This document shows positions 2 to 27,021 of a stretch of 32,352 nucleotides of DNA, one piece after another (position 1 is the stretch's first letter; every line of letters starts with the position of its first letter). Source of the DNA: a virus; IMG/VR virus record IMGVR_UViG_3300047170_000036, positions 1 through 32,352 of that record, one strand, 5' to 3'. The notes beneath the pieces were generated by a model. The model ran no database searches. It was given only the letters and a program-made list of their open reading frames with translations, and was not told where the DNA came from. The translations under genes and the position numbers were made by a program.

Positions 2-1417
2 TACCGACATCTCGCGTCCAGGTTCGGTGGCGAACCAGAGCGCCGTAAGCAGATGGGTAATTTCTGGAAGCTGGCGGGCGACGATCCGGTAGGCTTCGAC
101 TACGCGGCGGGTGACGGGACGGCCACGTGGCACCTATATCATAAGCAGCTGGAGTCCATGTCCACGCCGTTCGACGCCGAGGGACGGTCTCTCGACGCCA
201 TCCGGAGGCTGGAGAGCGGCGTCACCCGCACGGTATACCGTATGACACGGCGAGGCGTCCGGATCGACGAGGGGCGCCTCGCGTGGGTCATAGACGAGCT
301 GGGGCAGCGGCTGGCTCAGGCATCCAAGGCGCTGCCCGATAACTTCAACGTGCGGTCGTCGTCGCAGATCAGGGGGCTGATGGAGAGGGCCGGACATACC
401 GACTGGCCGCTGACCGACCCCACACCGAGGTTCCCCAACGGGAACCCGTCGTTTACCGAGAAGTGGCTCAAGTCCACTCCCCTCGGCCGCGACATCCTGG
501 CAATCCGTAAATACGGCAACTTGCTTAATTCATTCGCTATACCGACGCGCGACCGGCACATTCATAACGGGCGTGTCCACGCTACGTTTACCCAGATGGC
601 GAACGATGAGTTCGGGACCATCACTGGGCGCTTCTCCTCCTCGGAACCGAACCTACAGCATGTGCCCAAGCGGACCAAGGAAACGGCGGAGTTGATCCGG
701 TCCTACTCCGTGCCCGACGAGGGACTTGACTGGTGGGACGCGGACCTATCACAATGCGAGCCGAGGCTCTTAGCCCATTACGGGAACGTAAAGGTCCTCG
801 TGGACGGCTACCTATCGACCCCGCCGGTTGACGCGCATCAGGCCGTCGCCACGGCGGCCGGCATCGACCGGGAGGACGGCAAGCGCCTAAACCAGACGAT
901 CATTACCGGTGGAGGCCGTAACAAGATCATCAGTATGCTGGGACCGAACGGCGCGTCGATCTACGACCGCTATTTCGAGGCGATGCCAGAAGTGAAGTCG
1001 TTACAGAAGATAGCCGCGCGGCGCATGGAGCAGCGGGGCTACGTGATATCGCTTAAGGGACGTCTCGCGCGGCTGGAGAGCAGCAGCAAGAGCTATCTCG
1101 CGATCAACCGCCTGCTGCAGTGCGGTAACGCGGACATCATGAAGGAGGCCATGGTCCGTATCGACAGCCACTTCGAGGCCGAGGGGGACGAGGTAGCGAT
1201 ACTGAACACCGTGCACGACGCCCTCGGCTTCCAGGCCGACGCCAATAATAAGCAGCACCGTAAGATTATGGAACACGCGCTGCGCCTATTTACGGACTAC
1301 GGGCCGGATGATAAATATGGCACATACCTGCGGGTTCCGATGGCCGCGGAGTATGGTATAGGCAAGAACTGGGCCGAGGCCACCTACCCGAAGACCAAAC
1401 TCACATACGGGGGGTAG
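2..1417 (+). CDS. dpoZ: Family-A DNA polymerase, 5' truncated by window edge (DpoZ candidate)
   Basis: The reading frame is open from base 2, so the gene starts upstream; the ATG at 53 is an internal Met. Numbered from that Met, residues 15-25 (FDYAAGDGTAT) fit exonuclease motif III, so a 3'-5' exonuclease domain probably precedes. The polymerase core follows: TGRFSSSEPNLQ at 191-202, motif A DLSQCEPR at 231-238 with the metal-binding Asp, motif B around REDGK at 273-277, YVISLKGR at 330-337, GNADIMKEAM at 358-367 and motif C VHDA at 387-390. Three normally conserved positions differ. The residues equivalent to E. coli Pol I Phe762 and Tyr766 read Gln and Thr, and the Glu after His-Asp is Ala. 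Proximity to purZ, mazZ and datZ suggests the DpoZ type described for phage phiVC8, which prefers Z over A; that assignment is inferred from context. The gene ends just before the VRR-NUC gene. Confidence 0.88.
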   Translation, partial: YRHLASRFGGEPERRKQMGNFWKLAGDDPVGFDYAAGDGTATWHLYHKQLESMSTPFDAEGRSLDAIRRLESGVTRTVYRMTRRGVRIDEGRLAWVIDELGQRLAQASKALPDNFNVRSSSQIRGLMERAGHTDWPLTDPTPRFPNGNPSFTEKWLKSTPLGRDILAIRKYGNLLNSFAIPTRDRHIHNGRVHATFTQMANDEFGTITGRFSSSEPNLQHVPKRTKETAELIRSYSVPDEGLDWWDADLSQCEPRLLAHYGNVKVLVDGYLSTPPVDAHQAVATAAGIDREDGKRLNQTIITGGGRNKIISMLGPNGASIYDRYFEAMPEVKSLQKIAARRMEQRGYVISLKGRLARLESSSKSYLAINRLLQCGNADIMKEAMVRIDSHFEAEGDEVAILNTVHDALGFQADANNKQHRKIMEHALRLFTDYGPDDKYGTYLRVPMAAEYGIGKNWAEATYPKTKLTYGG

Positions 1418-1422
1418 GTAGG

Positions 1423-1896
1423 ATGGTGGTTGAGACGGACATCCAACGGACGATAATTGACGCCATCGAGAAGGGCGTGTCCGGGTGGGCCATTAAGATG
1501 TCGAATGCTTATACGAACCACATTCCGGACATACTGGCTATGTTCCCTCTCGGCAGCCATGGAACACACACCATGGTGATCGAAGTAAAGCGCATCCTGG
1601 CGATGCCTGTCCGCGATAGTGATTTTGTTAAGTTCGCACACCCCTTGACGGCGGGTCAAAATCAGACTTTAATAAACATACGCCGAGCAGGTGGGAGGGC
1701 CTGCTGGTGGGCGGTCTACAAAACCCAGACCGAGGATGTGGTCTATATAGGTCTTGACCGAACCAGCATGCCGACACGAACGGAGTTTATAGATAAATGT
1801 CACCGAAGAAAGACGGGGCCGAAGGGCCTGCCCTGGGAAGTTTTCATAGTGTCTCTGCTGAGAGAGGCGTTACACTTGACGAACTACTCAAAGTAG
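1423..1896 (+). CDS. VRR-NUC family nuclease
   Basis: A 157-residue protein with the layout of VRR-NUC nucleases of the PD-(D/E)XK superfamily. It has an N-terminal ETDIQRTIIDAI helix, then GWAIKMSN, then the catalytic core IPDILAMFP (residues 33-41) followed by VIEVK (about 52-56), and the Q-containing helix AGQNQTLINIRRAGG (about 77-91). Asp, Glu and Lys of the core are all present, so it should be active. In other phages such proteins act as structure-selective or junction-resolving nucleases in replication and recombination, often beside helicases; the exact substrate here is unknown. It starts 5 bases after the polymerase stop with a GGTAGG ribosome site, and its 3' end overlaps the next gene by about 100 bases if that gene's first ATG is used. 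Confidence 0.72.
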   Translation: MVVETDIQRTIIDAIEKGVSGWAIKMSNAYTNHIPDILAMFPLGSHGTHTMVIEVKRILAMPVRDSDFVKFAHPLTAGQNQTLINIRRAGGRACWWAVYKTQTEDVVYIGLDRTSMPTRTEFIDKCHRRKTGPKGLPWEVFIVSLLREALHLTNYSK

Positions 1897-2252
1897 TGTT
1901 GCATAATCCCGCCGAGGATGGTCCGCCCGCTCCGCGTGGCGACATCATTTCGGCGTCGTCCGGCGTGCTGGACGACATGCGGAGAGTCCTGGTGGAGCGC
2001 GGAGCGACCTACGCGGACATCGCCGACAACAGCCGGGTATTCAGTGCGCTGATGCTCTCCCTCGGCGTCCGGCCCCCGGACCATATGACACCCACGCAGT
2101 TTCACTGCCTGGCGAACATATGCACGAAACTGGCGCGGGTGACGACGGGCGACTGGTTGCACGAGGACAGCTACCTGGACATCGCCAACTACGCGGTGCT
2201 GATCCTCGCCGACATCCGCCGCAACCGTCGCTCGAAGGGAGGAACCCTGTGA
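1797..2252 (+). CDS. DUF6378-like phage protein
   Basis: The C-terminal two thirds, from LDDMRRVLVERGATYADIADNSRVF through LARVTTG to YLDIANYAVLILADI, match the pattern of small phage proteins annotated DUF6378: a helical domain with a conserved K(L)ARI stretch and a following D-x-x-D-(I/L)-A-x-Y helix. Function of that family is not established; its frequent place beside nucleotide-metabolism genes suggests a MazG-like helical fold, which is only inference. The start is uncertain. The ATG at 1797 overlaps the nuclease gene by 100 bases; a GTG at 1896 would overlap its stop by one base, and an ATG at 1977 would trim the poorly conserved N-terminus. The stop overlaps the purZ start codon by four bases (GTGA). 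Confidence 0.6.
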   Translation: MSPKKDGAEGPALGSFHSVSAERGVTLDELLKVVLHNPAEDGPPAPRGDIISASSGVLDDMRRVLVERGATYADIADNSRVFSALMLSLGVRPPDHMTPTQFHCLANICTKLARVTTGDWLHEDSYLDIANYAVLILADIRRNRRSKGGTL

Positions 2253-3385
2253 TATTAAAAAATTTCGTGCATAGGGGTAAGGCGTCCGTCATTGTCGGGG
2301 GCCAGTTCGGATCCGAGGCTAAGGGTCTTGCCGCCGCGATGGTGGCTAAGGCGTGCCCCATCGAAAACCCGATCGCCACCACCAACGCGGGTGCGCAAGC
2401 TGGCCATACCACGGTCTTGCCTGATGGTCGTAAGTTCGTGTGCTACCATCTTCCCACGGTGGGAGTGATGCTGCCCGAATCTACCATATACATCAACGCG
2501 GGGTCCATCATCGATCCCGACATGCTACAGCATGAGATAACCAAGGTGTCCCTGGTTACGGGCGAACCACTGCCCGATCTCCTCAACCGCATAATTATAC
2601 ACCCCAACGCGGCGGTGGTGACGAAGGAAGACCGGGACGAGGAAGCGTCGTCAAGCCGAGGGACCACGCGCATAGCATCTACCCGCAAAGGGGTGGGGTC
2701 TGCTCTGGCGCGTAAGATAATGCGTAGTCGTCTTGCTACTGTCACGGACCATCCGGGCAAGCTCAGCGGCTTTAAACTAAGAGCGTTGAACTTGAATTAC
2801 GAGATGGAGCATAACTACAGGGCGGTTACGGTGGAGATACCGCAGGGAACCGGGCTGAGCATGAACAACGGCCCGTTTTATCCTTACTGCACCAGCCGGG
2901 ACTGTTGGGTGGGCCAGGGTCTCACCGACGCGGGTATCCACCCCCTTCACCTCGGCCGGGTGCTGATGGTGCAGCGCACCTATCCCATACGAGTCGGGCA
3001 CATCTATGACTACGAGGGAAAGCAGATCGGTGACTCGGGGCCATTCTATCCGGACAGCCGGGAACTGGAATGGGCCAAGGACCTTCCTGGTATTGACCCT
3101 GAGATTACCACCGTCACTAAGCGCGTTCGGCGCATCGCCACGTGGTCGTGCAACCAGTATATGGACGGCCTGCAGTTAAACATTCCCGACATCGTGCTAA
3201 CTACGTTCGTCAACTACTTTCAGTCCGCCTACGAACTGCAGAAACTGATGGAGCGCATGAAGGATGCCGAGATAGATGTGCAGGTATACCCCCAGCACAT
3301 CATGTCGTGGGGGCCAGGCTTCGGGGACTATGGTGAGTCTTTCGACGCCCTTAAGTGGCTCAGTGACCGGGAGGAACTAAAGTAA
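2249..3385 (+). CDS. purZ: PurZ, 2-amino-2'-deoxyadenylosuccinate synthase
   Basis: A PurA-like adenylosuccinate synthetase of 378 residues. In characterised Z phages PurZ condenses dGMP with aspartate, using ATP or dATP, to give the N6-succinyl precursor of dZMP, which host PurB then cleaves. The P-loop region reads GGQFGSEAKG (residues 17-26). PurA has GxxWGDEGKG, so the catalytic Asp is replaced by Ser22, a hallmark of the PurZ group. NAGAQAGHTT keeps the PurA His loop, and STRKGVGSA matches the PurA loop TTGRGIGPA. The GTG start at 2249 was chosen because GGGAGG lies just upstream, it overlaps the previous stop as GTGA, and the family homology begins shortly after it. An upstream in-frame ATG at 2120 would add residues with no resemblance. 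The stop overlaps the next start as TAATG. Confidence 0.9.
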   Translation: MILKNFVHRGKASVIVGGQFGSEAKGLAAAMVAKACPIENPIATTNAGAQAGHTTVLPDGRKFVCYHLPTVGVMLPESTIYINAGSIIDPDMLQHEITKVSLVTGEPLPDLLNRIIIHPNAAVVTKEDRDEEASSSRGTTRIASTRKGVGSALARKIMRSRLATVTDHPGKLSGFKLRALNLNYEMEHNYRAVTVEIPQGTGLSMNNGPFYPYCTSRDCWVGQGLTDAGIHPLHLGRVLMVQRTYPIRVGHIYDYEGKQIGDSGPFYPDSRELEWAKDLPGIDPEITTVTKRVRRIATWSCNQYMDGLQLNIPDIVLTTFVNYFQSAYELQKLMERMKDAEIDVQVYPQHIMSWGPGFGDYGESFDALKWLSDREELK

Positions 3386-3750
3386 TGGCCACCCTCGGCC
3401 ACTACGGCGACTACGACGAGTATTTACGGATGCTCGTCGAGGCGATGCGCTACAAACTACGCGTCAACTCTCATAAGGGACATTTGGGGGATGTCCCTCT
3501 TGAGCAGTTGCTGGCGAAGATACGAGAGGAGATTACCGAACTAGAGGATGCCGCACAACGCGGAAGTAAAATCGAGATGATACTGGAGGCAGCGGATCTC
3601 GCAAATTTTGCGCTAGGGTTTATTATTGCTGCCCTTAAACCTGCCGTGGGGGATACTACCAATGTTCGAGCGCCTGTATCGCGAGTTGTCCTTCGTTCCA
3701 AGGTGGTCGGTAGCCAGAACGATACGCCATCAAAGCGTAGCGGAGCATAG
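3385..3750 (+). CDS. mazZ: MazZ, MazG-like dGTP pyrophosphohydrolase
   Basis: A 121-residue all-helical MazG-type NTP pyrophosphatase. The metal-binding signature EExxE then ExxD is present: EEITE at residues 48-52 and EAAD at 68-71, spaced as in the family. In the described Z pathway MazZ converts dGTP (or GTP) to the monophosphate, supplying dGMP to PurZ and lowering competition; here this role is inferred from the PurZ and DatZ neighbours. The start codon overlaps the purZ stop (TAATG), implying coupled translation. The last 30 or so residues (VRAPVSRVVLRS onward) lie outside the MazG core, look disordered, and are encoded in the 89-base overlap with datZ, so they may exist mainly because of that overlap. 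Confidence 0.8.
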   Translation: MATLGHYGDYDEYLRMLVEAMRYKLRVNSHKGHLGDVPLEQLLAKIREEITELEDAAQRGSKIEMILEAADLANFALGFIIAALKPAVGDTTNVRAPVSRVVLRSKVVGSQNDTPSKRSGA

Positions 3751-4294
3751 CTACTACGTCACGCTATATGCCGTCCAGACGGCGGACCTGATAAGGTGGA
3801 GAGGCCAGCGCGGAACATTGATGAAAGCGGCGCTGCTCCACGACTTGATTGAAAGCCTGGCGGGCGATACCCCCGGTCCGGCTAAGCGCGCCCTGTTTGA
3901 GAGTAAACCCGAAGCCGAGAGATCGGTCCTGTATGACCGTTTCGGTCACTGGGTAGATACTTCGCTTCATCCCCTCGGCACGAAGGAAATTATTAAGTTC
4001 GCGGACCTGATGGATGAAGCGATGTTCCTGGCCACCGAATATCAGCTCGGTAATAGGTCCCTCGGCAACCCCGATGACGGCTTCGTGGGGAACCCCCATG
4101 CCAAGACCGTAATATGGAGCACCCATACTCGGTTGCGCAGGGCATGGGATGCGCTATACCCGTTTACGCTACTAGCGAAGGAGGACCTGGAGGGCGTCTG
4201 GTCAGAAGCCATATTAAAGCAGATACATGGGGCATATTCCGAAGCCAGCTACGCCATCACCGATGGCGACACACAGTTAGCACAGCTCGCATGA
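3662..4294 (+). CDS. datZ: DatZ, HD-domain dATP triphosphohydrolase
   Basis: A 210-residue HD phosphohydrolase. The N-terminus FERLYRELSFVPRWSVARTIRHQSVAEHS is typical of DatZ: PRW and RT..RHQSVAEHS precede the first metal His (H29), then LLHDLIE supplies H60-D61, and FADLMDE supplies D115. Known DatZ enzymes strip the whole triphosphate from dATP, emptying the dATP pool so that only dZTP is available; the 2-amino group of dZTP is excluded sterically. The ATG at 3662 follows GTGGGGGA at good spacing. A TTG at 3626 would add 12 unlike residues. The gene overlaps mazZ by 89 bases in another frame, and its TGA overlaps the helicase ATG (ATGA). Assignment is strong because the motif order and the neighbours agree. 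Confidence 0.86.
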   Translation: MFERLYRELSFVPRWSVARTIRHQSVAEHSYYVTLYAVQTADLIRWRGQRGTLMKAALLHDLIESLAGDTPGPAKRALFESKPEAERSVLYDRFGHWVDTSLHPLGTKEIIKFADLMDEAMFLATEYQLGNRSLGNPDDGFVGNPHAKTVIWSTHTRLRRAWDALYPFTLLAKEDLEGVWSEAILKQIHGAYSEASYAITDGDTQLAQLA

Positions 4295-5703
4295 AGTGGC
4301 ATATCAAGGGAAATCCGTTTGACGTTCAGCGGACCGCCCTTGAGCGGTCCGAGGGGCGGGCAGCCTACGCGTGGTTCATGGAGCAGGGTCTGGGTAAGAC
4401 CCCCGTAGCCTTGAACGCTTTTGAGGACCTGGCGCAACAGGGAAAGGTGACCGACATGGTGGTCATCGCTCCCAACAGCCTTAAGGGCAACTGGGAGGAC
4501 GAGGCCAGGAAGTGGGAGTCTTCGGCGCGCATCCAGATATGGGACAGTCCGGCCAGATGGAACCAGAATAGCGGCGCGGATGTGCATATATTCAATTATG
4601 AATGTTGCTCCATGGCGGGTGGCGACGTAATTGAAAATCTGCTGGAGACCAGAAAGTGTCTACTGGTATTGGACGAGAGCCAGCGGATAAAGAACCCGAA
4701 TAGCACGGTAACACGGCGTGTGCTTGGCCACTTTGCTAAGTATGCGAGATACCGCCGTGCGCTTTCCGGAACCCCGATGACCAACACCGTGTTAGATTTC
4801 TGGTCGCAGCTACGCTTCGCGGGTGCGCTGAGTGGCTCAAACCCTATAGTCTTTAAGAACCGATACGGGGTGTCGGTGGCCGGCTTCAAGGGCCACAAGA
4901 AACTGGTGGGCGTAAAGAACGAAGACGAACTACGCGACATCATAAACGGCGTAGCGTTCCGAGCACTCAAGATCGACTGGGCGAAGGATCTTCCTGATAA
5001 ACTGTATCGCGAGCCAATGCGCTTGGAACTGCCTGGCGAGTTACGTGCCCACTATCAGACGATGCTTGAAATGTTCATCGTAATGTTAGACGACGACAGG
5101 GCTGTCCTCACCGACGCCGTGGCCGGACAGTATCTCAAGCTGCAACAGATTTCGTCTGGCTTCATATATGACGGCGACAACGTGCATACCCTGATGCCGA
5201 TGCATCAATTGCCGAAATTCAAGGCGCTGATGGATGTTATCGAGGCAAATGGCAACAACAGCAAGACGTTAGTGTTTGCCCATTTCCGACCGACATGCCA
5301 GAAACTGCTCGCGGCGATTGAACAGGAGACCGGTGAGCCGCCTGCCTGGATCGTCGGCGGAATGCGGACCGAAGACGTGCGGGCACAGAAGGATGCGTTC
5401 AACTCCGACACGGGGCCGAGGGTAATGGTCCTGCAGCTTTCGGCGGGCAAAGAGGGGCACACCCTGTTGGGGGGACCCTCGGTCCCGTGCCACACTTCGT
5501 GCTACTTCGAGAACAGTTTTAACCTTGGGGACCGGCTGCAGTCCGAGGACCGTAATCACCGCTACGGACAGAAGAACCCGGTGCTTTACGTAGACTTTAC
5601 GTCTAGCCCCGTGGAAACGCACGTTATACGGGCATATCAAAAAAAGAAGAAACTGGTAGAGTATCTGATCGACAATAAAGAGTATTTGACAAAAGGGGGT
5701 TAA
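4291..5703 (+). CDS. SNF2-family DEAD-like helicase
   Basis: A 470-residue superfamily-2 ATPase of the compact phage SNF2 type. Motif I is MEQGLGKT (30-37), motif II is LVLDESQRIKN with DESQ at 128-131, motif III is LSGTP (158-162). The second RecA-like domain shows KTLVFAHFRPTCQKL, then LQLSAGKEGHTL, and motif VI QSEDRNHRYGQKNP near the C-terminus. It should be an ATP-driven DNA translocase or helicase acting at replication, recombination or transcription; no primase or zinc domain is visible. The ATG at 4291 overlaps the datZ stop (ATGA), and homology starts at once with the FDVQRTALERS Q-motif-like stretch. A longer in-frame start at 4114 lies inside datZ and is unlikely. Confidence 0.85.
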   Translation: MKWHIKGNPFDVQRTALERSEGRAAYAWFMEQGLGKTPVALNAFEDLAQQGKVTDMVVIAPNSLKGNWEDEARKWESSARIQIWDSPARWNQNSGADVHIFNYECCSMAGGDVIENLLETRKCLLVLDESQRIKNPNSTVTRRVLGHFAKYARYRRALSGTPMTNTVLDFWSQLRFAGALSGSNPIVFKNRYGVSVAGFKGHKKLVGVKNEDELRDIINGVAFRALKIDWAKDLPDKLYREPMRLELPGELRAHYQTMLEMFIVMLDDDRAVLTDAVAGQYLKLQQISSGFIYDGDNVHTLMPMHQLPKFKALMDVIEANGNNSKTLVFAHFRPTCQKLLAAIEQETGEPPAWIVGGMRTEDVRAQKDAFNSDTGPRVMVLQLSAGKEGHTLLGGPSVPCHTSCYFENSFNLGDRLQSEDRNHRYGQKNPVLYVDFTSSPVETHVIRAYQKKKKLVEYLIDNKEYLTKGG

Positions 5704-5705
5704 AC

Positions 5706-6062
5706 ATGGTATCTTTTGGATCGTATCCAGGCAGACAGAGGACCCGTAAAATGAACATAACGTTGGATCAAATAGACCTGTTGGCGCGTTTCGTTATGTC
5801 CCTTAAGGACCACTACGGAGCAGTTGAAGTAAAGAATGACAAGGGTCACCGCCAGTTTATCAACCCCTGGAACCTGATGCCGGGTGACCCAGGGTATATA
5901 TTCATATTGAAAGACAGTGGGCGGGTCAAATACGGCAAGGGAACAGGCGCGACGCAATCCACGTTCATGTCCGACCGTATGGTCCAGTCGATCGCGTCGC
6001 GCCGCCAGTTAAAGCCGAGCCAGTTTCGGGCACCGTCCGGCAGCCCCATCGCGGGGTCTTAA
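5706..6062 (+). CDS. Small protein of unknown function
   Basis: No family recognised. The 118-residue frame begins with MVSFGSYPG and has a basic N-terminus. A second possible start at 5751 (MNITLDQIDLL) has its own GAGGA site and would begin at a clear amphipathic helix. The middle (NPWNLMPGDPGYIFILKDSGRVKYGKG) looks like a small beta-rich domain. It is the last rightward gene of the replication operon in this window, starting two bases after the helicase stop, with GGGGG upstream. Its 3' end overlaps the convergent leftward gene by four bases, leaving no space for a separate terminator. Codon usage and position support a real gene; function cannot be guessed. Confidence 0.6.
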   Translation: MVSFGSYPGRQRTRKMNITLDQIDLLARFVMSLKDHYGAVEVKNDKGHRQFINPWNLMPGDPGYIFILKDSGRVKYGKGTGATQSTFMSDRMVQSIASRRQLKPSQFRAPSGSPIAGS

Positions 6063-7372: not shown

Positions 7373-10308
7373 TATCTTGTTCCCGTGAGAGTTATAGATA
7401 GGTCTTGCAGCGTCGCATCCTGGCTGGACTGGGCGTCGATTTCCAGAATGTCCCCCGCCGAAAAGGATATGGTTGTCCCACCCGCGCTCGTAAACGTGCC
7501 AGGGTTGGTAGTCGCCGATGTCAAGGTGCATGTTCCCACTGACGTCCCATTCTTATAAATGGTTGCCACGTAGTTTGAAGTCGGCGCCACTTTTGCCGCC
7601 ATCAGTGAACCCGCAAAGTTTGCTGGGAAAACCACCGCGCGTGCCATGATGGCACGATAAAATACATAGTTCGTGCCACTCACAGCGGCGGGTGGAAACC
7701 CAGTATAACTCATGGGCACGTCGTAAGGATTACCCGCGCCCACTGGCAAAGTAGTCACGTTTATTCCAGCCGAGGGACTGCTCTGGCCCGCCGCGTTCAC
7801 CGCGACGACGAAGTAAGTGTAGGCGGTGTTCGGAGCCGCCGTGGTGTCCACAAATGAACTGGACAACGAGTTGGCCTGGATCAGCGTAGCAGCACTGAAC
7901 GGCTGACTGGCCCCTACGGCACGATAAATATCATAAGATGATATCGTGTAGTCACCCGCTGTCGGTGTGATAGACACGTTCGCCGAGGAGGCGCCTGCTG
8001 TCACTGTCGGTGAGGCCGGGGCCGAGGGGACAGCGGTAAGAAGCGCGCCGCTGTTGGCCGTGCTGGAAGTGTCCCAACTTGAAATATTGATGCCCGTGGT
8101 GGACACCGCGCGAACACGGACCTGATAGTTCGTGCCGGGCGTGGCGGGCGTAATGGCGTAACTGGTAGCGTTACCGGCCAGCGCGATGCTTGGTCCCCAC
8201 GCGCTGCCGCCGTTGGTCGAGATCTGTAACTGGTAGCTGCCGAGGATCGGTCCGGTGCTCGCTGTCCACGACACGTTCATAGACATCAGCGTCGTGCCGT
8301 CCGCCTGGGTGGTGCGAGAGACCGACAATGTGGCACCGGTTGGAGGGGCGATGGCGTAGCCCGCCCCCGTGGTGGTGTAGGCGTAGGCGTCTACGTCGGC
8401 GATGTCTTGTATTTGAAGCTTGAACTGATTGAAACTCACGAACTTGAAGTAAAGTGTGGACCCGACATATGCCTGTGGCAGCGAATAAGTAAACGCAGAA
8501 TTGGGGTTGATGCGTGAGAAGAAACCGCCAATCGAGTGACTGGCGGCGGTGGTCCCGTAGGCGCCGCGCTCAAGGTATGTCAGGTTAAACAGATATTCGC
8601 TGGCGCCTTGGGCCACGGCGCCATATGCCAACAGTTCGGTATCTACCAGACACAGTGTCCGTAACGCCGTGGCGTCCGCGTGGGTCGCCGTCGTGGGCAT
8701 GACGGAGTTAGATTCTGTCAGGTCAACGGCAAGAGTGTTGGCGGTGTCTGGCTGCGAAGAGGGAGACGCCAGAGTGGCGGTAAGGACGCCCTGTATCGTA
8801 GCCGAATTAATCTGGCCGATGTTACTATACGTCGTGCCGCCATCGAACGATATGTAAACGTAGCACCCGCCCCAATATTGACCCCCGCTGCACCCGATCC
8901 AAACCTGCGGCGTGCCCCCCGTCAACGAAGCATTAGGCTCGAAGATCGCGGGCGTGTTGACATTGCCTGGTAGTGCGTTGGTGTTGATCGGAGCGGTAAC
9001 GGTAGCCGTGGTGCCGGTGTAGGCGGTAACTTGCCCGATGCCGTTGGGAAATTCCTCGGCCGTAATAGCCAACATTCCCTTCTCGTCTTCATCCACAGCG
9101 GTAATGCGAACGGGAAACTGGCTAAGACCTATGTTCACGTCGGTTAGCGTAACAATGTCCCCCGGTTCGAGCAACACGTAGTTGTAGCCGAGGGTAAACT
9201 TATATGTGTTGCGGATATACACCGACCGCTTTCCTATCAGCGCGGCGCAGTAAGTTCCTATACTGGTATCACAGATCTCCGGCGCCGAGATGACCTGCGA
9301 CTGTAGCTGGCCATAGGTATCGACCGACACCTGATCCATCCAGGTAATCGAAGTGTTGTTATAGGCGTTGGCGCGATCACAAATATCCAGCTGCACACAG
9401 TTATAGCCGTCCACCGGGTCGAGGCGCGTAACTTCGATCGGCCCCTGGCCAGTGGGGCTATCGTAGATAAAGTCGTCGTAAGTCAGATTGTAGACCGGCG
9501 ACAAGTTGGGCGTATAGGTTACGTCGTTGTTGGTCAATGTCTGAGTGCCGAGGGGGACGAACTTAAGAAGGTTACCAGACCAGAATATCCACGTGTTGGT
9601 GACTTGTGCCCAGCGGGTCAGCGTGTTGTAAGCTTGCTCCTGCTCGTGTAGATAAGGAGAGAAGAATATGGTGTTGGCTTGGCAATAATCTTTCCACAGC
9701 GTCCAGGATGTGCTATCCACGTTTCCGGCCGGGAAGTTGGCCCCGTAATAGACGCTGGATAGGAAATCGAGCGTCGCGTCGGCCGGGTTAATGTCGTAAG
9801 TATTGCCATAGGGCATGGACCCTTCCAGGTTCCCGATAACTTCAAAGTTATGGGAGGGCAGATCGGGCGACGTGCCGAGGGTATAGTAGTTCGAGCACAC
9901 ATAGGCGGTGCCAGAATAGGGCAGCGCTTGAGACGGATAGTTGTCTTCCAGCCAGGACCACACGCCCTGGCCCTGGCTGCCCGCGAATAGCGTTAAACTT
10001 AAGTCGTCGAGGGAGGACAGCGACTGACCCGCCCAGACCCGATTAATTCCCTGTATACCCGTAAGGCTGCCCTCGCAGATAGCCAGGATCACTGCGCAAG
10101 TGTAGTCATACTGCCCGTCGCCCCCACCGCCGCCCTTACCGCCACTCTCACTGTCAGACTGCGCATTAAAGTCGTTATACCATATGATGTTACACGAGGC
10201 ACGGAAACGGCCCCATCCGATTGGGATGGCCATTCCCTGAACAGATGTTTGAAGATTGATGCCTGTGTATTTAGTAGTGCTCTTCGATATTGAGCTACCG
10301 CCCATCAT
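7372..10308 (-). CDS. Tail tip protein, TipJ-like, with fibronectin type III domains
   Basis: A 978-residue protein at the end of the tail cluster. The N-terminal half begins MMGGSSISKSTTKYTGINLQTSVQG and includes IPIGWGRFR, a Gly-rich loop and CAVILAICEG, typical of the phage tip attachment protein J / host-specificity group in gene-transfer-agent-like tails. This part forms the tail-tip hub. From about residue 650 there are two fibronectin type III-like domains (TGATLSVSRTTQADG... to YQVRVRAVSTTG, then APASPTVTAGA... to TYFVVAVNAAGQ). The last 110 residues (YDVPMSYTGF onward) form a separate beta-rich C-terminal domain that could bind the receptor. It overlaps the NlpC/P60 gene by four bases and the endolysin start by one. 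Confidence 0.8.
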   Translation of the reverse strand: MMGGSSISKSTTKYTGINLQTSVQGMAIPIGWGRFRASCNIIWYNDFNAQSDSESGGKGGGGGDGQYDYTCAVILAICEGSLTGIQGINRVWAGQSLSSLDDLSLTLFAGSQGQGVWSWLEDNYPSQALPYSGTAYVCSNYYTLGTSPDLPSHNFEVIGNLEGSMPYGNTYDINPADATLDFLSSVYYGANFPAGNVDSTSWTLWKDYCQANTIFFSPYLHEQEQAYNTLTRWAQVTNTWIFWSGNLLKFVPLGTQTLTNNDVTYTPNLSPVYNLTYDDFIYDSPTGQGPIEVTRLDPVDGYNCVQLDICDRANAYNNTSITWMDQVSVDTYGQLQSQVISAPEICDTSIGTYCAALIGKRSVYIRNTYKFTLGYNYVLLEPGDIVTLTDVNIGLSQFPVRITAVDEDEKGMLAITAEEFPNGIGQVTAYTGTTATVTAPINTNALPGNVNTPAIFEPNASLTGGTPQVWIGCSGGQYWGGCYVYISFDGGTTYSNIGQINSATIQGVLTATLASPSSQPDTANTLAVDLTESNSVMPTTATHADATALRTLCLVDTELLAYGAVAQGASEYLFNLTYLERGAYGTTAASHSIGGFFSRINPNSAFTYSLPQAYVGSTLYFKFVSFNQFKLQIQDIADVDAYAYTTTGAGYAIAPPTGATLSVSRTTQADGTTLMSMNVSWTASTGPILGSYQLQISTNGGSAWGPSIALAGNATSYAITPATPGTNYQVRVRAVSTTGINISSWDTSSTANSGALLTAVPSAPASPTVTAGASSANVSITPTAGDYTISSYDIYRAVGASQPFSAATLIQANSLSSSFVDTTAAPNTAYTYFVVAVNAAGQSSPSAGINVTTLPVGAGNPYDVPMSYTGFPPAAVSGTNYVFYRAIMARAVVFPANFAGSLMAAKVAPTSNYVATIYKNGTSVGTCTLTSATTNPGTFTSAGGTTISFSAGDILEIDAQSSQDATLQDLSITLTGTR

Positions 10309-10820
10309 TGTGTGCGCTCCCTGATGTGCGCCCAGACATCAAAGAATTTCCTCGGACGCGGGGAGCCGTTCCGGTATCTCGCCAATCGCGACGACCATAT
10401 CTCCTCGCGAGAGCATCTGCCGTTAAGAAATGCATGAATTATCTTGTCGTCGCCAATGTATATCCCACTATGAGAGAAGGTGCGGCCGAACTTAAACAGC
10501 ACCAGGTCCCCCGGTCTGGGTGTATCTACTTCTTTGGCCGAGAGCGACATCTGCTCCAGATACCGCTCCTGGTCCTGGTGTAAATGCCACTGGGTAGGGT
10601 AGGGCCGAGGATCGAATGATCTGAACACGCCCGCATCCACCCACGCGCGCACCAGCAGCATGGCGCAGTCCACCCCTACGCCAGGTTGGTCCGCCTGTTC
10701 TCGGTAAGGTGTTCCCTTGAACCGCATCGCCTGCTCGATTACGGCGAGGCGCTGCTCCTTCTCCTTCTCCTCGGTAATGGGTAATACCATAGGGTTCAGC
10801 TCGGGAAATACAGCGGCCAT
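10305..10820 (-). CDS. NlpC/P60 tail peptidase
   Basis: A 171-residue NlpC/P60 cysteine peptidase. The catalytic Cys lies in GVGVDCAML (C52), the His in FSHSGIYIG (H117), and the third polar residue in IIHAF (H129). In siphophage tails of this type the protein sits between the BR0599 and TipJ-like genes and is thought to help tail-tip assembly or cut peptidoglycan peptides during DNA entry. It overlaps the following gene by four bases and the preceding one by one base, so translation is probably coupled. All three active-site residues are present, so it should be active. The N-terminal 25 residues are a charged helix specific to this phage group. Confidence 0.85.
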   Translation of the reverse strand: MAAVFPELNPMVLPITEEKEKEQRLAVIEQAMRFKGTPYREQADQPGVGVDCAMLLVRAWVDAGVFRSFDPRPYPTQWHLHQDQERYLEQMSLSAKEVDTPRPGDLVLFKFGRTFSHSGIYIGDDKIIHAFLNGRCSREEIWSSRLARYRNGSPRPRKFFDVWAHIRERTQ

Positions 10821-11680
10821 CAGTATGCCGTCTCCGCTGGCGGAATATATGGAAACCCTCGGTAATGAGCCGTGTTCGAGAACACGTTACCACAGGTAGT
10901 CAGAGACCTGTCGCAACCGTAAGTAGCGGTAAAGGTATCGCCGACCGAGGGGGCCTCATATAGAGGATAGGCCAGATACATTTGCGAGTTGTTTGCGGCC
11001 TCAATGGTCCTGGATTGACCATTAGCCACGCCGCTAGTCATGGTGATGTAGCCTAACCGGAAATCGGACCCGTCAGTGGTGCGGTGTGTTCCCCATGTGA
11101 TAAGTTGCGCGGTGGGTGCGACGCCGACCACCCCCTCGAAGGTATAGTCGGCCCGGTCCTTAGTGCAACCGGAGTCATATAGCGAGTGGATGCACGAGAG
11201 TTGGAACAGGTTTCTCGGCATGTATTGCTGCAGGCATACGTTTATTCCCTTAACGGTGATAGTCGCGCCAATCGCGCCGAGGGAGATGGTGCTGGTCTTA
11301 CCCTGGAACAGTAAGACCTGGCCATACGACGTGTTGCCAAAAGTGGGCATGAACGCGCGGTATAGTGTGATCGTTGCGCCGTCGAGCAGACCGTTGTGGA
11401 TCAATAGCTTAATGTTCTCACCGGAGTTGTAGTCGGTGCCGGTGGAGAGCATCTTTATCTCCATCTCTGGAACTTCAATGGTGTTCTTCACGGACCATTT
11501 AGTGCGTGTCAGCGCGGGACCCATGGCGACATATAGCGTGCCGCCAGCCGTGATCGACTGGTCACTACTGGTCCAGTTGTTCGTAGTCCCATTGGTCAAA
11601 GCAAACGAAAACAGGTCCGTCGTCCAGAACGGTTGACGACTGAGCAGAAACGCGATAAGACCAGAGGACGCGGGGCGCAT
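10820..11680 (-). CDS. Tail hub protein, phage BR0599 / DUF2163 family
   Basis: The 286-residue protein has the classical layout of the BR0599 (DUF2163) family. It starts with a conserved PASSGLIAFLLSRQPFWTTDLFSF segment and ends in a Cys-rich knot with GCDRSLTTCGN followed by FSNTAHYRGFPYIP (about residues 253-279). More Cys residues occur at CLQQ, LSCIHSLYDSGC. These proteins form part of the distal tail hub between the DUF2460 protein and the tip. Gene order here (DUF2460, BR0599, NlpC/P60, TipJ-like) is the standard one. It is joined to both neighbours by one-base overlaps. Function is inferred from family and position. Confidence 0.85.
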   Translation of the reverse strand: MRPASSGLIAFLLSRQPFWTTDLFSFALTNGTTNNWTSSDQSITAGGTLYVAMGPALTRTKWSVKNTIEVPEMEIKMLSTGTDYNSGENIKLLIHNGLLDGATITLYRAFMPTFGNTSYGQVLLFQGKTSTISLGAIGATITVKGINVCLQQYMPRNLFQLSCIHSLYDSGCTKDRADYTFEGVVGVAPTAQLITWGTHRTTDGSDFRLGYITMTSGVANGQSRTIEAANNSQMYLAYPLYEAPSVGDTFTATYGCDRSLTTCGNVFSNTAHYRGFPYIPPAETAY

Positions 11681-12540
11681 TATTGCCTCTGCGAGATCAG
11701 GGTCACCGTCTTAAGTGACCATATCTGGTTGACAAACTTCTCGAACTCCAGGTTGTCGTCAGCGAACGTAACCCAGAAATAAAACGAAAACGTAATAGTA
11801 AGAACAGCCCCCTCGGCGGGCGCGGTGTTGAACCTGATTATCTGGTTACACGCTTGCGCAGTGAGGACCGTATATACCGAGGGGCTGACCAAAGTTCCGT
11901 TGTTATAGACATTTAGTGTATTGCTTGTATTAAGAACCCCCACAGGCTCGAACGGGTTAGTGTCATCGCCGTTGTAGTATCGACCGACCGTGAACTGGGT
12001 AGTCGTGCCGTCGCCCGTGCCGAGGGGGCCAGCCACGACGCTGTTGTCGTCGGGGTCCAGAAAGCAGAACGCGAGCAGACCACCCGCGACGTTAATGTAG
12101 AAACTTTGCAGCGTCTTGTAGTCGCTCGCGGTGGTGCCGTTAAGTTGAGCATCTGGGAGATACTCGTAAGTAAGCTCCCACTTCCATTTATTGACGCCCC
12201 AGTAACCGACACGGATGTCGCGCCCCGAAGCGGGCTTTCCGGTGCCCGTGCTCCACAATGGTGATTTCATCACGCTGAAACCGAGACCGACGAGGGTTGG
12301 ATAGGTGGCCACGTCTATTTCCTTGTAGGGGATAACGGCGCACACAAAGAACTGCGAGACGCGAACAGGCGAAGGAGTGACATGGATGACACTCTCGATA
12401 ACGAGTTGTGAGGCACGAACCGGAGGGGGTGTAATTGTGATGCAGGCTTCCACCATTTCCTGCGATACACGGACCGCGTTGGTGCCAATGTATGACGGCG
12501 CTTGAATAATGAGTTGGGAAACTCGGGCATACGTGACCAT
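11680..12540 (-). CDS. Distal tail protein, DUF2460 family, with N-terminal 18-residue repeats
   Basis: A 286-residue distal tail protein. From about residue 75 (KEIDVATYPTLVGLGFSVMKSPLWSTGTGKPASGRDIRVGYW) it follows the DUF2460 pattern: 'FPTl.g.gf...k.p.f.t....gsGrE.R.a.w', then WKWELTYEYL and later GRYYNGDDTNPFEPVG. In gene-transfer-agent-like tails this family forms the distal tail ring. The N-terminal 70 residues are an addition made of four 18-residue units built around R-(V/A)-S-Q (see the separate repeat entry), probably beta-hairpins facing outward. The gene overlaps the BR0599 gene by one base and begins one base after the preceding stop. Confidence 0.8.
   Translation of the reverse strand: MVTYARVSQLIIQAPSYIGTNAVRVSQEMVEACITITPPPVRASQLVIESVIHVTPSPVRVSQFFVCAVIPYKEIDVATYPTLVGLGFSVMKSPLWSTGTGKPASGRDIRVGYWGVNKWKWELTYEYLPDAQLNGTTASDYKTLQSFYINVAGGLLAFCFLDPDDNSVVAGPLGTGDGTTTQFTVGRYYNGDDTNPFEPVGVLNTSNTLNVYNNGTLVSPSVYTVLTAQACNQIIRFNTAPAEGAVLTITFSFYFWVTFADDNLEFEKFVNQIWSLKTVTLISQRQ
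12313..12528 (-). repeat. Four 18-residue repeats within the DUF2460 protein
   Basis: Units begin at residues 5, 23, 41 and 59 of the protein (ARVSQLIIQAP, VRVSQEMVEACI, VRASQLVIESVI, VRVSQFFVCAVI). The period is exactly 18 residues (54 bases). The shared core is R-(V/A)-S-Q followed by alternating hydrophobic residues, with Pro/Gly/Thr between units. The DNA units are less alike than the protein units, so the array looks old and selected. Confidence 0.8.
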
Positions 12541-20760: not shown

Positions 20761-22272
20761 TTAGTTGTTGCCGATGTTGGTGATGATGCCCATCGACGGC
20801 GGGAAGTAATGCTGCAAAACCTCGTCGGCGTAGACGCCATATTGATACTTGCGGGAGACGAGTGGCCACTCGATCTGGTAGTAGTCCTGGCGGGTCCGGA
20901 TCTGCGCCACGTTCGACACGTTAGACAACGGGTATGGCAGCCGCTCCGTGTAGAACAAGATCGTGCCCGGCGGCATGTTGGGGTGGATCTTGACCGGAAT
21001 GAGTTGCCCGCCCGCCATCGAGAAGCGGTTGAGATACTCCTTGATCATGACGCCGCCCGCGATCATGCCGTCTTTGACGTCCACGTTGAACCGCAAATTG
21101 GACGTCGCCGAACCGCCGACCAGGATCTTCTTGCTGATGTTCAGCGCTTCCTGGCTGTTGACGTAGATCACAGTCGGGGACAGACGGTAGACATCCCAGA
21201 AATGCTTCAACGCCACGTCAACTTCGACAATGCCACCTTCGTTGTCGGACGTTAGACCGGTGCCGGTTCCGGCGGTGCCCGTGGCCTGCGCGGAATAGTA
21301 ACTGTTGCTGCCGGTCTTGACCACCTGCGTCAGCAGACCGTCAAACACCAAGGTGTTCGCCGAGTTATCATTGGTGCCGAGGGACGCCGCCGTCTGGGTG
21401 CCGGTCGCGGCGGCGGTGATGACGAGGGAGTTAATCGAAGTGATGGCACCCAGGAGTTCACTACCCGCCGCCCCCCAAAACCAAGCGTATCCGAGAGCGC
21501 CTGATGTGGTCGTGGTGGTCGCGGCGATGGAGCTGGTAGCGCCGCTCGTGGTAACGGTGGCGCTGGCAGAAAGTTTGCCGGTGCCGCCACCAAACGTATC
21601 GGACGAACCATCCGCGTTAGTGCGGACAATCTGGCCTTGCACACCGCCGGTCACGGAACCGTTGATGTAACCGTCCAGCGTAAGTGGAGCCACGATGACG
21701 GACCAGGTTTGAGCGGCGAGAGTGCCACCCGTGCTGCTGCCTGTCAGAGTGGGGGTGCCGCCCTGGCCGATCGAGACGCTGCTGCACCCGCCGAGGATAA
21801 GCAGCTCCTCGCCGATCATCGTGGCTTCGAGCAGGGTCTTCGCCGCAATGGCGCGAACATCATCGAAGCCCATGCCAGCATACTGCGCCTCGAAGTCCAC
21901 GTTGTCTTCGAGACCGATGCCCTTATAGGCGGCGGTGTAGTCCTGCGTCGAGACCGCGATCACGCCGCCACGATTGCCGCCCGATACGCCGAGACGGACG
22001 CCCGACGTGTTGATGGCGGTGACCGCGCGCCAGTTGGCCTGGATGCCACCCTTACCGGAGACGCGCGGCATGGTGTTCCGCAGCGGCGTCAGGACGGGAT
22101 ATAGGAACTTGGCGCCAAGTTCCAGGTCGTAGAACGTCAGGCCAGACGTAGCCGTGCCGCTTTGCGAGAAGGTAGACTTCTGCAAAATGTCGCTCATACG
22201 CGGGTCGGCGATGGGCGATTCGTATGCCTTGCGGAAGGCGGTGAGGGTTTCGGCAATCTGGTTCGGGTTCAC
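20761..22272 (-). CDS. Major capsid protein, HK97 fold
   Basis: A 503-residue protein in the place of the major capsid gene. The N-terminal arm (residues 1-60) and GAKFLYPVLTPLRNTMPRVSGKGGIQANW are followed by helical and beta regions typical of the HK97 spine helix and A-domain. The C-terminal part ending ...YQYGVYADEVLQHYFPPSMGIITN is also typical. A Gly/Ser/Thr-rich block at about 162-305 (SVSIGQGGTPTLTGSSTGG... to ...TQTAASLGTNDNSANTLVF) looks like an added surface domain. The GTG start at 22272 has a strong ATAGGAG site. It follows the protease/scaffold gene and is followed by a stable hairpin, consistent with high expression. Confidence 0.85.
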   Translation of the reverse strand: MNPNQIAETLTAFRKAYESPIADPRMSDILQKSTFSQSGTATSGLTFYDLELGAKFLYPVLTPLRNTMPRVSGKGGIQANWRAVTAINTSGVRLGVSGGNRGGVIAVSTQDYTAAYKGIGLEDNVDFEAQYAGMGFDDVRAIAAKTLLEATMIGEELLILGGCSSVSIGQGGTPTLTGSSTGGTLAAQTWSVIVAPLTLDGYINGSVTGGVQGQIVRTNADGSSDTFGGGTGKLSASATVTTSGATSSIAATTTTTSGALGYAWFWGAAGSELLGAITSINSLVITAAATGTQTAASLGTNDNSANTLVFDGLLTQVVKTGSNSYYSAQATGTAGTGTGLTSDNEGGIVEVDVALKHFWDVYRLSPTVIYVNSQEALNISKKILVGGSATSNLRFNVDVKDGMIAGGVMIKEYLNRFSMAGGQLIPVKIHPNMPPGTILFYTERLPYPLSNVSNVAQIRTRQDYYQIEWPLVSRKYQYGVYADEVLQHYFPPSMGIITNIGNN

Positions 22273-24624: not shown

Positions 24625-27021
24625 TCACGGCGCCACCCGCAACTCGATGTGGCACCGACAGCGCGGGTGGCCTGGAGTCATGCGGTCGCCGCTGGTAAAC
24701 GCGGAGTTCATCGCCACGAAACCGTCAAGTTCGTTCTGGGCACAGATCGCCGCGCACACGCGGTCGTCGCCCATCGTAACCCAACGCTTCAACGAAGTCA
24801 TTCCCAACGCACCCAACAATTCCGCTCCAATCTCCAGTCCAGCAGAATTGGCTCTTAATACCTCGGCCCCCGCGATAAGCGCGGCCCTGGCTTCTCCAAA
24901 TACTGCTGTCTCTATTCCAGCAGCCAGAGCCTCGGCTGTCAAGTTTTCCTGTATTCCCGACTCCAGGGCACGCTCCACCATGTTAACCGTGGTTTCAGCG
25001 ATGTTCATCTCGGCCGAAAGATCAGGGGTCAGATTACCAAGATGGTCATAGTCAAGCCCAACTAGTTCAGCGGCGCGGGCTTTTGCCCAGGCCGTGGCCG
25101 AGAGGGCCACCTTCGCGATCAGGTCCATGGCGGCGTCGTAGCCAGACATGACGATATCCGCCGCATCTTGCGCAACAGCCCGCAGATAGCCCGCGATCCG
25201 GCCAGGCACATCCCGTAGACCAGATAAGTCCACCGACTCCGCGATCTTCCTGGCGATCGGGCCGTTAAACAGTGAAACTTTCCCTAGACGCCGCAACGAC
25301 GCCTCGATGTGTTCTCGCGCCTTAGCGCCAATCGAGGACAGGATCTCGGTAAGAACATCCTTGATCTGCTCCGTGGCCTGAACAATTACTTTGCGGTCAT
25401 TCGGCGCCGATAGAAGCCTCCGCTCGGTATACTTTCTCAACCCTTTCCCAAAAGGGATGTCGGCCAGTTTGCCTACCCCCGTCTTGGGTTTTTTAGCAGG
25501 CTCAGGGGGCGGGGTGGTGTCAGGGGGCTCCCGCGCGCCCTCTCGCGTGGTTCCCATGCCCTTTACGTCGTCGTTAACTTCTCCGGCGCCAGCGGCCCCG
25601 CCAGCGGCACCAAACTGATTAGTAGGGGCGATGGGAACCCAGCCGGTGGGCAGCAGGGCCAGATGCTGATCGCCGCCGTCAATGGCGTCCTCGCCCAACT
25701 TATCCAGAGCCTGGTTGATCGAGAATATCCCAGTTTTAACGTAGTCGGTGAGAACTTTTGCCTGGTCAGCCGCGTTGACGTCATCGGGTGTCTCGAACGC
25801 GAACTCGATGTCACGGCGGTTCCATTCGCGCCATATGATAAGGTTTATCAGCGAAGTAACCCAGCTCTGAATGGGGGCGAGACCCTCCTCCAGCGCCTGT
25901 TGCTTCTGACTCTCGGCCGTGGCCCGGTTAACCTGTTTAACAAAGGGCGTGGGCGAGATCGAAAACGCAAAGCATGCGATGCGCGTAACCCATTCGTCGG
26001 TCTCGTCAGTCAACGCGCCGCTCTTGGTCTCGTGAATATTCTTGGTCGTGCCACCGGGCACAAACCGCCCACGCCGCCGCGTGCCCGTCTGCCCCTGTAG
26101 TTGCTCGTCAAACCAAGTCTGGAACTCACGGATCTGGTTCATGGACCAGGTATCCGGAACCCCGATAAGGGCCTCGGGCATATTGCCCTCGGTATAATAT
26201 TGCAGCAAGAACGTCTCTCGGCGTAGCGCGATCGTGATCGACATCACAATCTGCTCGACCGGACTATATCCCATCACCTTATGGGGCCGCACGTTTCTGG
26301 GCTTATAGATCATGTCCCGCGTGGTATAGTTCACGGCGGGAAGACCCTTTAAGATCTGCTGGTAAGCCGGAAGAGGATATTGCGGCGTCTTCCCCCAGTC
26401 ATTAATTACGCGCTTGATGGCCCCGCCGTCGAGCACGTCGAGACCCATCATCGTGCCGCCCCGGTTGCGCCGCACAAACAGGGTCGGCGCGTCGATGACG
26501 AACAGGTCCTCCAGGATCTCACGCAGCCAGGTGTCCCAGAACTGTTCACCGTCCGGCATGGTAAAAAAGTCGCGTATCTCATTGATTACAGGGTCATCAG
26601 GCTTAACGCGCTTCCTGCCAGCGGCCGAGGGCCTCGGCTTAATGTTCCAATTGAGACGCACCATCTGGTCCTTGCGGGTCTCGATGATGGTCCGCAATAC
26701 GTCCCAACTCTCGGCCAGAGCCCGTAGCTGCCAGAACTGTATCGGTTCGTATGGCCGAGGAGTGGTGTCTAGGTTGTAACCTGAGGGAAAGTCAAAGATA
26801 CGCCCCGCCACTTCCGGTGGGGCGCTGGGAGACATGGGGTTGAGCGGACCGAACCAGTCAGCGGGCGTCCCGGTGACGATACCTGGAGAATATCCGCCAG
26901 GATAGGTATATCCGTAGCCCGAATACTGTAGCGAGTAGGGGTTGCCAGGGCCATTCGGGTCCATCACGGGCGATTTCGCCTGTGGGAGGGGGGTAACGCG
27001 GCCCTGAGTGGAGTCTACCAT
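24625..27021 (-). CDS. Portal protein fused to MuF-type minor head protein
   Basis: A 798-residue fusion. Residues about 60-470 form a phage portal: IQFWQLRALAESWDVLRTIIETRKDQMVRLNW, then MGYSPVEQIVMSITIALRRETFLLQYYTEGNMPEALIGVP, and EWVTRIACFAFSISPTPF. After a Pro-rich linker (TTREGAREPPDTTPPPEPAKK), the C-terminal 270 residues are mostly helical and end with the MuF-type motif KRWVTMGDDRVCAAICAQNELDG...TPGHPRCRCHIELRV, with the conserved Cys and PG-HPRCRC. In most phages these are two genes. The portal forms the head vertex for DNA entry; MuF proteins are ejected or associated with it. The start ATG lies one base after the stop of the 37-codon gene upstream. Confidence 0.85.
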   Translation of the reverse strand: MVDSTQGRVTPLPQAKSPVMDPNGPGNPYSLQYSGYGYTYPGGYSPGIVTGTPADWFGPLNPMSPSAPPEVAGRIFDFPSGYNLDTTPRPYEPIQFWQLRALAESWDVLRTIIETRKDQMVRLNWNIKPRPSAAGRKRVKPDDPVINEIRDFFTMPDGEQFWDTWLREILEDLFVIDAPTLFVRRNRGGTMMGLDVLDGGAIKRVINDWGKTPQYPLPAYQQILKGLPAVNYTTRDMIYKPRNVRPHKVMGYSPVEQIVMSITIALRRETFLLQYYTEGNMPEALIGVPDTWSMNQIREFQTWFDEQLQGQTGTRRRGRFVPGGTTKNIHETKSGALTDETDEWVTRIACFAFSISPTPFVKQVNRATAESQKQQALEEGLAPIQSWVTSLINLIIWREWNRRDIEFAFETPDDVNAADQAKVLTDYVKTGIFSINQALDKLGEDAIDGGDQHLALLPTGWVPIAPTNQFGAAGGAAGAGEVNDDVKGMGTTREGAREPPDTTPPPEPAKKPKTGVGKLADIPFGKGLRKYTERRLLSAPNDRKVIVQATEQIKDVLTEILSSIGAKAREHIEASLRRLGKVSLFNGPIARKIAESVDLSGLRDVPGRIAGYLRAVAQDAADIVMSGYDAAMDLIAKVALSATAWAKARAAELVGLDYDHLGNLTPDLSAEMNIAETTVNMVERALESGIQENLTAEALAAGIETAVFGEARAALIAGAEVLRANSAGLEIGAELLGALGMTSLKRWVTMGDDRVCAAICAQNELDGFVAMNSAFTSGDRMTPGHPRCRCHIELRVAP

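Follow-up and report, generated by a model that had tools for sequence, protein, structure and literature searches.

Introduction

A stretch of 32,352 bases, the virus record IMGVR_UViG_3300047170_000036 of IMG/VR (linear and probably incomplete; referred to here in its full length as the window), raises two related questions. Do the genes at its left end, which include purZ, mazZ, datZ and the gene for a family-A DNA polymerase, belong to a phage that carries 2-aminoadenine (Z) in place of adenine (A), and is the polymerase one of the Z-related DpoZ enzymes already described? The record starts inside the polymerase gene, and its left 5.7 kb, on the + strand, make up the last part of a replication module. 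We consider it highly probable that this locus is the replication/nucleotide module of a phage in which Z replaces most or all of the A, and that its polymerase belongs to a PurZ-linked clade separate from DpoZ. One of the closest known systems is that of the cultured Ochrobactrum phage vB_OspP_OH (MT028492; OH in what follows), which has MazZ-2 and was included among the Z-cluster phages in earlier work (PMC8342488). The Z-cluster and the gene order of OH are known; what is new is the clade of PurZ-linked polymerases.

Classification of the polymerase

By sequence as well as by fold, the best match of the polymerase in the PDB was the phiVC8 DpoZ (7pbk; Foldseek E 1.1e-23). The AlphaFold 2 (AF2) model of the polymerase (predicted local distance difference test score 90.9) placed helix O at residues 290-301, and motif B reads R290-E-D-G-K294-R-L-N-Q298-T299-I-I-T302-G, with Q at the position of E. 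coli F762 and T at that of Y766. The signatures and insertions of the phiVC8-like DpoZ have been defined before (PMC8599892), and some of them are found here. The extended exonuclease helices E1/E2 are present (FGGEPERRKQM, in which R14 and M18 are equivalent to R161 and M165 of the phiVC8-like DpoZ), and so is palm insertion 1 (QMANDEFGTITGRF), the length of which (7) is common to several non-Z polymerases and is therefore weak evidence for DpoZ. Insertion 2 on helix O is absent (R754-K758 spacing of 3 versus 10 in the phiVC8-like DpoZ), as is insertion 3 (an O1-P loop of 5 versus 25-27 residues), and the DpoZ residues L455 and F459 of motif B and G548 of motif 6 are replaced in the window by Q298, T302 and N, respectively. 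Tyr766 is otherwise nearly invariant, and the one characteristic mutation that the two DpoZ subfamilies share is its replacement by Phe (PMC8599892). Both have F at 766, as L762/F766 or F762/F766, whereas the window has Q762/T766. The DpoZ_1 model of NCBIfam gave 230.2 bits against a curated cut-off of 500.

Phylogenetic trees of 101 polymerases and of 64 rows were built without the motif-B columns, and phiJL001, a non-Z relative of DpoZ, was left out of the polymerase trees. In the 101-polymerase tree the window fell in a 64-row clade with a Shimodaira-Hasegawa-like approximate likelihood ratio (SH-aLRT) support of 98. PurZ is found nearby in every member of this clade but one, L157, located at the end of a contig. 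The careful 64-row tree separated the window clade (100/99), the phiVC8-like DpoZ (100/100) and the ordinary phage PolA (100/99), and a sister relationship between the first two was neither supported nor rejected by the approximately unbiased (AU) test (p-AU 0.44). Within its clade the window belongs to a Q762/T766 subclade, where its nearest relative (L014) is 67-68% identical, and the OH polymerase lies in the M/L762 subclade with S766. In this clade Tyr766 is replaced by Thr (or Ser, or in two members Asn), except in five basal members that keep it, and Phe762 is replaced by Gln, Met or Leu.

The "DpoZ-type polymerase" of a first-pass annotation of this DNA was thus not borne out, with most phiVC8 signatures missing, T in the place of F at 766 and a clade of its own. 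We considered filing the polymerase under DpoZ and rejected it on the missing signatures and the separate clade. The Wayne-like DpoZ was also set aside: the window has T302 instead of F766, and Wayne falls outside the window clade, on a very long branch of unsure placement. From its sequence, the polymerase is best assigned to a separate, large and uncharacterised clade of PurZ-linked polymerases and not to a described DpoZ.

Identification of PurZ, MazZ and DatZ

A search of IMG/VR with the window PurZ as a single sequence gave zero matches, and the IMG/VR PurZ relatives were retrieved with alignment queries. In a tree of 45 proteins the window PurZ grouped with that of OH and IMG/VR PurZ sequences (100/99). 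This clade is sister to the characterised PurZ proteins of S-2L, phiVC8 and SH-Ab 15497, and the joint PurZ group (97/93) lies apart from the PurA branch (100/100) rather than inside it. The NCBIfam PurZ model NF038379 scored 213.5 bits on the window protein, far above the PurA models (at most 139), and the closest PDB structure was the S-2L PurZ (7odx, 1.3e-35). An alignment showed that the catalytic Asp of PurA is replaced by Ser (S22, in GGQFGSEAKG), and that the TTVT loop (287-290) and Q303 are kept. These are the counterparts of S-2L S23, T273 and Q308, which have been tied to the substrate contacts of PurZ (PMC8342488). The product of this gene is classified as a PurZ, not a PurA, and is predicted to use dGMP.

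The window MazZ showed similarity only to purZ-neighbour genes of phage OH, the VP2/phiVC8 group of vibriophages and Alteromonas ZP6, which make up the MazZ-2 set (PMC8342488). It has the ExxE...ExxD metal motif (E49, E52, E68 and D71), its gene is placed between purZ and datZ, and it is assigned to the MazZ-2 type on sequence affinity. In the case of DatZ, the catalytic and specificity residues have been defined for the S-2L enzyme, in which I22 excludes the 2-amino group (PMC8065100). Window residues R14, W15, V17, Q24, A27, H29, H60, D61, E64, G68, P73, K75, K112 and D115 correspond to S-2L R19, W20, I22, Q29, A32, H34, H66, D67, E70, G74, P79, K81, K116 and D119. All four metal ligands (S-2L H34, H66, D67 and D119) are conserved, together with the phosphate-binding R19, K81 and K116, W20 (the sugar gate) and P79, and the only change, I22 to V17, is conservative. 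The datZ gene adjoins mazZ and purZ. DatZ has the specificity residues of the S-2L enzyme, which speaks against a general HD nucleotidase, and the assignment of the three proteins to the Z pathway in the first-pass annotation is supported by the tree, the active-site residues and the MazZ-2 affinity.

Linkage between the polymerase motif and PurZ

The first loci had been collected by way of PurZ; the link was tested instead on samples chosen by polymerase motif. Among the best matches of a universal PolA motif scan, all five non-Tyr766 polymerases (5/5) had an adjacent PurZ, and all the others had Tyr766 and no PurZ. None of 39 whole Tyr766 control records, including that of Brevundimonas phage Polewnik, contained PurZ when searched with the model by which PurZ was detected in the motif-scan contigs. 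DNA-pattern scans of IMG/VR for the Q762/T766 and M762/T766 motifs yielded 134 polymerase open reading frames (ORFs), a count that includes near-duplicates; pattern matches outside polymerase ORFs (15 of 53 Q-type and 3 of the 80 first-listed M-type) were discarded as background. PurZ was on the same contig in 127 of the 134, the contigs of the other seven end before the expected place of purZ, and no PurZ-free counter-example was found among them. When all aligned polymerases are taken together, 88 of 93 that are linked to PurZ are non-Tyr766, and 84 of 86 that are PurZ-free have Tyr766, the other two being located on truncated contigs.

A different arrangement was observed in two contigs of 111 and 161 kb (L072 and L138), which carry a PurZ-type gene and a distant F762/Y766 polymerase outside the cassette; DatZ was not found in these two contigs.

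Proposed pathway and alternative explanations

By homology, MazZ-2 would convert dGTP to dGMP, and PurZ would form succino-2-amino-dAMP from dGMP and aspartate. PurB and kinases of the host would finish dZTP, DatZ would destroy dATP, and the family-A polymerase would then copy DNA from a pool where dZTP has replaced dATP. On top of this control of the pool by PurZ, MazZ and DatZ, the O-helix would be reshaped at residues beside the nascent base pair. We infer that the substitutions at 762 and 766 may fit the polymerase to Z:T pairs, by selection of Z over A or by tolerance of Z-DNA. Tentatively, and with somewhat less than an even chance of being right, the polymerase may represent a third, widespread class of Z-polymerases, position 766 being a shared site of Z:T adaptation in three lineages and the Tyr766 members being pool-only intermediates. 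That this phage has a Z genome is very likely, its Z content being deduced from gene content and residues.

The structure 3hpo is that of a Bst polymerase Y714S mutant with a G:T mismatch; Y714 corresponds to Y766, and this Tyr has thus already been looked at in a mismatch context. In the literature on Klenow Tyr766 mutants nothing directly usable was found.

Several points weigh against a Z-adapted polymerase in a Z-genome phage. The curated cut-offs of DpoZ_1 and NF038379 (300 bits) are both missed by the respective window proteins; the latter is a threshold for a score rather than a feature of function, and the characterised PurZ lie on another branch than that of the window. The best PDB matches of DatZ by E-value include general HD nucleotidases, and the catalytic motifs of the polymerase exonuclease are off the contig and cannot be read in the window. 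On the 101-polymerase tree the loss of Tyr766 represents very few independent events, so the link with PurZ could reflect shared ancestry and not function; when Tyr766 loss was set against PurZ in a sign test corrected for phylogeny, the independent contrasts were too few to give it any power. Lastly, five basal members of the clade that are linked to PurZ (L044, L045, L049, L052 and L055) keep Tyr766, and loss of this residue is therefore not obligatory for a PurZ phage. These five are L762/Y766 and have DatZ, and they are possible intermediates or pool-only Z phages.

The explanation that competes best with polymerase adaptation is control by the nucleotide pool only, as in S-2L, with a polymerase that is blind to Z versus A and O-helix changes that are neutral or serve other uses (fidelity, dNTP supply). 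We regard it as plausible, if not quite probable. S-2L gets by with a PrimPol that does not discriminate (PMC8065100), Z becomes enriched in E. coli DNA when just the purZ-mazZ-datZ triad is supplied (PMC8342488), the signatures of the selective DpoZ are mostly absent from the window polymerase, and DatZ accompanies 5/5 of the Tyr766 members of the clade. However, 16 of 62 distinct Q/T, M/T and L/T loci have no DatZ homologue within 9 kb, and something else must therefore exclude A at those 16; moreover, 766 is the only position at which both of the Z-selective subfamilies are changed (PMC8599892). Partial or conditional substitution, in which the virion DNA would be a mixture of A and Z used, for example, in restriction evasion, is unlikely. 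Although Z content is not readable from sequence and the S-2L Z-cluster expressed in E. coli achieved only partial replacement (PMC8342488), the full conservation of the DatZ catalytic residues argues for active dATP removal, and the characterised purZ phages have complete replacement (PMC12884076). Ordinary purine metabolism without Z, which would make PurZ a phage-encoded PurA and reduce MazZ and DatZ to a housekeeping pyrophosphatase and a general HD 5'-nucleotidase, respectively, might draw on the PDB matches of DatZ and the missed PurZ cut-off, but is strongly disfavoured by the PurZ tree, the Ser at the PurA catalytic Asp, the dATP-specificity residues of DatZ, the MazZ-2 affinity and the Z-cluster synteny.

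A Z-genome phage with a polymerase from a separate PurZ-linked clade would bear on the question of how Z is preferred. DpoZ favours dZTP over dATP by 1-2 orders of magnitude. A structural study of DpoZ found no single determinant of Z-over-A preference (PMC8599892). The clade described here lacks two of the three DpoZ insertions and is altered at the shared position 766, and thus offers a natural test of this question with built-in controls, namely closely related polymerases in which Tyr766 is retained and a phage available in culture, OH. If the polymerases are Z-selective, they would add to the enzymes able to copy Z-DNA. One survey of viral PolA kept only F, L or Y at 762 (PMC9069017), and a classification by position 762 also used F/L/Y (PMC6302109); because of this restriction the Q762/M762 group was missed, leaving out a group of PurZ-linked phages. 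A 2026 survey of Z phages recognised two DpoZ groups and was built on NCBI viral proteins (PMC12884076); Ochrobactrum and DUF6378 are unmentioned in its main text.

Gene organization and comparison with known systems

The features of the left end of the window are listed in Table 1. The first-pass annotation had placed an apparently complete cassette of polymerase, PurZ, MazZ and DatZ genes in one operon with a helicase. All four genes were located on the + strand within 2-5703, followed by the helicase gene. The cassette is complete as to the presence of the four genes but not as to the polymerase, which is truncated at the contig end, and this truncation and the VRR-NUC-like and DUF6378 genes had been overlooked. 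The start/stop overlaps that it reported from purZ to the helicase gene were confirmed in the DNA, and such overlaps are found at nearly every junction: TAGTG at 1894-1898 (VRR-NUC/DUF6378), GTGA at 2249-2252 (DUF6378/purZ), TAATG at 3383-3387 (purZ/mazZ) and ATGA at 4291-4294 (datZ/helicase). The mazZ and datZ genes share 89 bases, from the datZ ATG to the mazZ stop.

Table 1. Coordinates of the genes at the left end of the window and the evidence used to identify them.
Feature	Coordinates	Strand	Evidence and remarks
Family-A DNA polymerase, C-terminal 471 aa	2-1417	+	DNA_pol_A 6.7e-44; 5' end cut by contig
VRR-NUC-like nuclease	1423-1896	+	Weak PHROG matches: endonuclease phrog_93 1.1e-4, helicase phrog_2165 2.1e-4
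DUF6378 gene	~1896-2252	+	GTG start 1896 or ATG 1797; PF19905
purZ, predicted succino-2-amino-deoxyadenylate synthase	2249-3385	+	GTG start 2249; NF038379 213.5 bits; PDB 7odx; tree
mazZ, putative MazZ-2 type MazG-like diphosphohydrolase	3385-3750	+	PRA-PH 6e-7; ExxE...ExxD motif; nearest phage proteins MazZ-2
datZ, putative HD-domain dATP triphosphohydrolase	3662-4294	+	ATG 3662; phrog_7076 2.2e-15; S-2L residues kept
SNF2-family helicase, replication module	4291-5703	+	SNF2-rel_dom 4.8e-19; phrog_62 DNA helicase 1.9e-98
Small ORF	5706-6062		Downstream of helicase

The cassette belongs to a large group. Of 74 distinct loci with sufficient flanking sequence, 32 have the arrangement Pol-DUF6378-PurZ-MazZ-DatZ and 15 have Pol-DUF6378-PurZ-MazZ; in total, MazZ is found in 64, DUF6378 in 56 and DatZ in 54. 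The recurrence of the order Pol-(DUF6378)-PurZ-MazZ-(DatZ) in most of these loci and in OH indicates that it is beyond chance.

OH shares with the window the order polymerase-nuclease-DUF6378-purZ-mazZ-2-(small orf)-datZ-SNF2 helicase, and its PurZ and polymerase belong to the same clades. The two differ in sequence (PurZ ~39% and polymerase 33.5% identity), in the polymerase motif (M762/S766 in OH versus Q762/T766) and in the tail, OH having Mu-like baseplate genes and the window a siphovirus-type tail. The phiVC8-like cassette (Vibrio phage phiVC8, Acinetobacter SH-Ab 15497) has the same purZ-mazZ-datZ order, helices E1/E2 with R161/M165 and palm insertion 1, but its polymerase has insertions 2 and 3 and L455/F459/G548, which the window polymerase lacks. 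Cyanophage S-2L has the purZ-mazZ-datZ triad and also a VRR-NUC gene; it differs in having a PrimPol and no family-A polymerase, and in its MazZ-1. In the Wayne-like PurZ0 phages (Arthrobacter) a family-A polymerase is also found beside a PurZ-type gene, but the latter is PurZ0, DatZ and MazZ are absent, and the polymerase is F762/F766 and outside the window clade.

Neighbouring genes and other observations

DUF6378 is a regular and unexplained partner of purZ, directly upstream of it in most related loci (56/74). The PF19905 model was matched by 14/14 family members, and 179 ORF matches, not deduplicated, were located at most 600 bases upstream of purZ. The protein is predicted to be all-alpha in its AF2 model, with which Foldseek found no convincing match (best E 1.2). 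The conserved K103/R106/D116/D120 are a lead to a possible MazG-like all-alpha nucleoside triphosphate pyrophosphatase, to which this Foldseek result lent no support. The window protein also matches a PHROG labelled "phosphofructokinase", and the same annotation is given to a gene in the vicinity of the phiVC8-like cassette in Burkholderia phage Bm1. The VRR-NUC-like gene occupies the position of the "putative nuclease" of phage OH.

A PurZ-like gene with Ser at the PurA catalytic Asp (GGQFGSEGKG) was also observed in about 16 bacterial genomes (L402-L417), including those of Agrobacterium salinitolerans, Bradyrhizobium, Hellea, Sphingomonas, Methylobacterium and Fibrobacteria. In most of them it is directly followed by a dCTP-deaminase-like gene (weak PF22769); in L412 (Agrobacterium salinitolerans) the two genes lie at 9992-11032 and 11032-12054, and the dCTP-deaminase-like protein appears to end in a transmembrane helix. 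A normal PurA was also present in 10/10 genomes checked, and the pair had no PADLOC match. It is possibly an unrecognised chromosomal nucleotide-modifying pair.

The right-hand part of the window, on the - strand, is a tailed-phage structural module with terminase, portal, head protease, tape measure, tail and endolysin genes. Its proteins (6304-31076) are related to those of Brevundimonas phages such as Polewnik (ON529863), which is without PurZ and has a Tyr766 polymerase, and a major structural protein (20761-22272) is 62% identical to those of Polewnik and Strzyga. Relative to the Brevundimonas phages, an exchange of the replication module seems to have taken place, and the relationship suggests an alphaproteobacterial host. 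The portal protein (798 aa; 24625-27021) has an apparent C-terminal head-morphogenesis domain and adjoins a 769-aa protein with a head-maturation-protease N-terminus.

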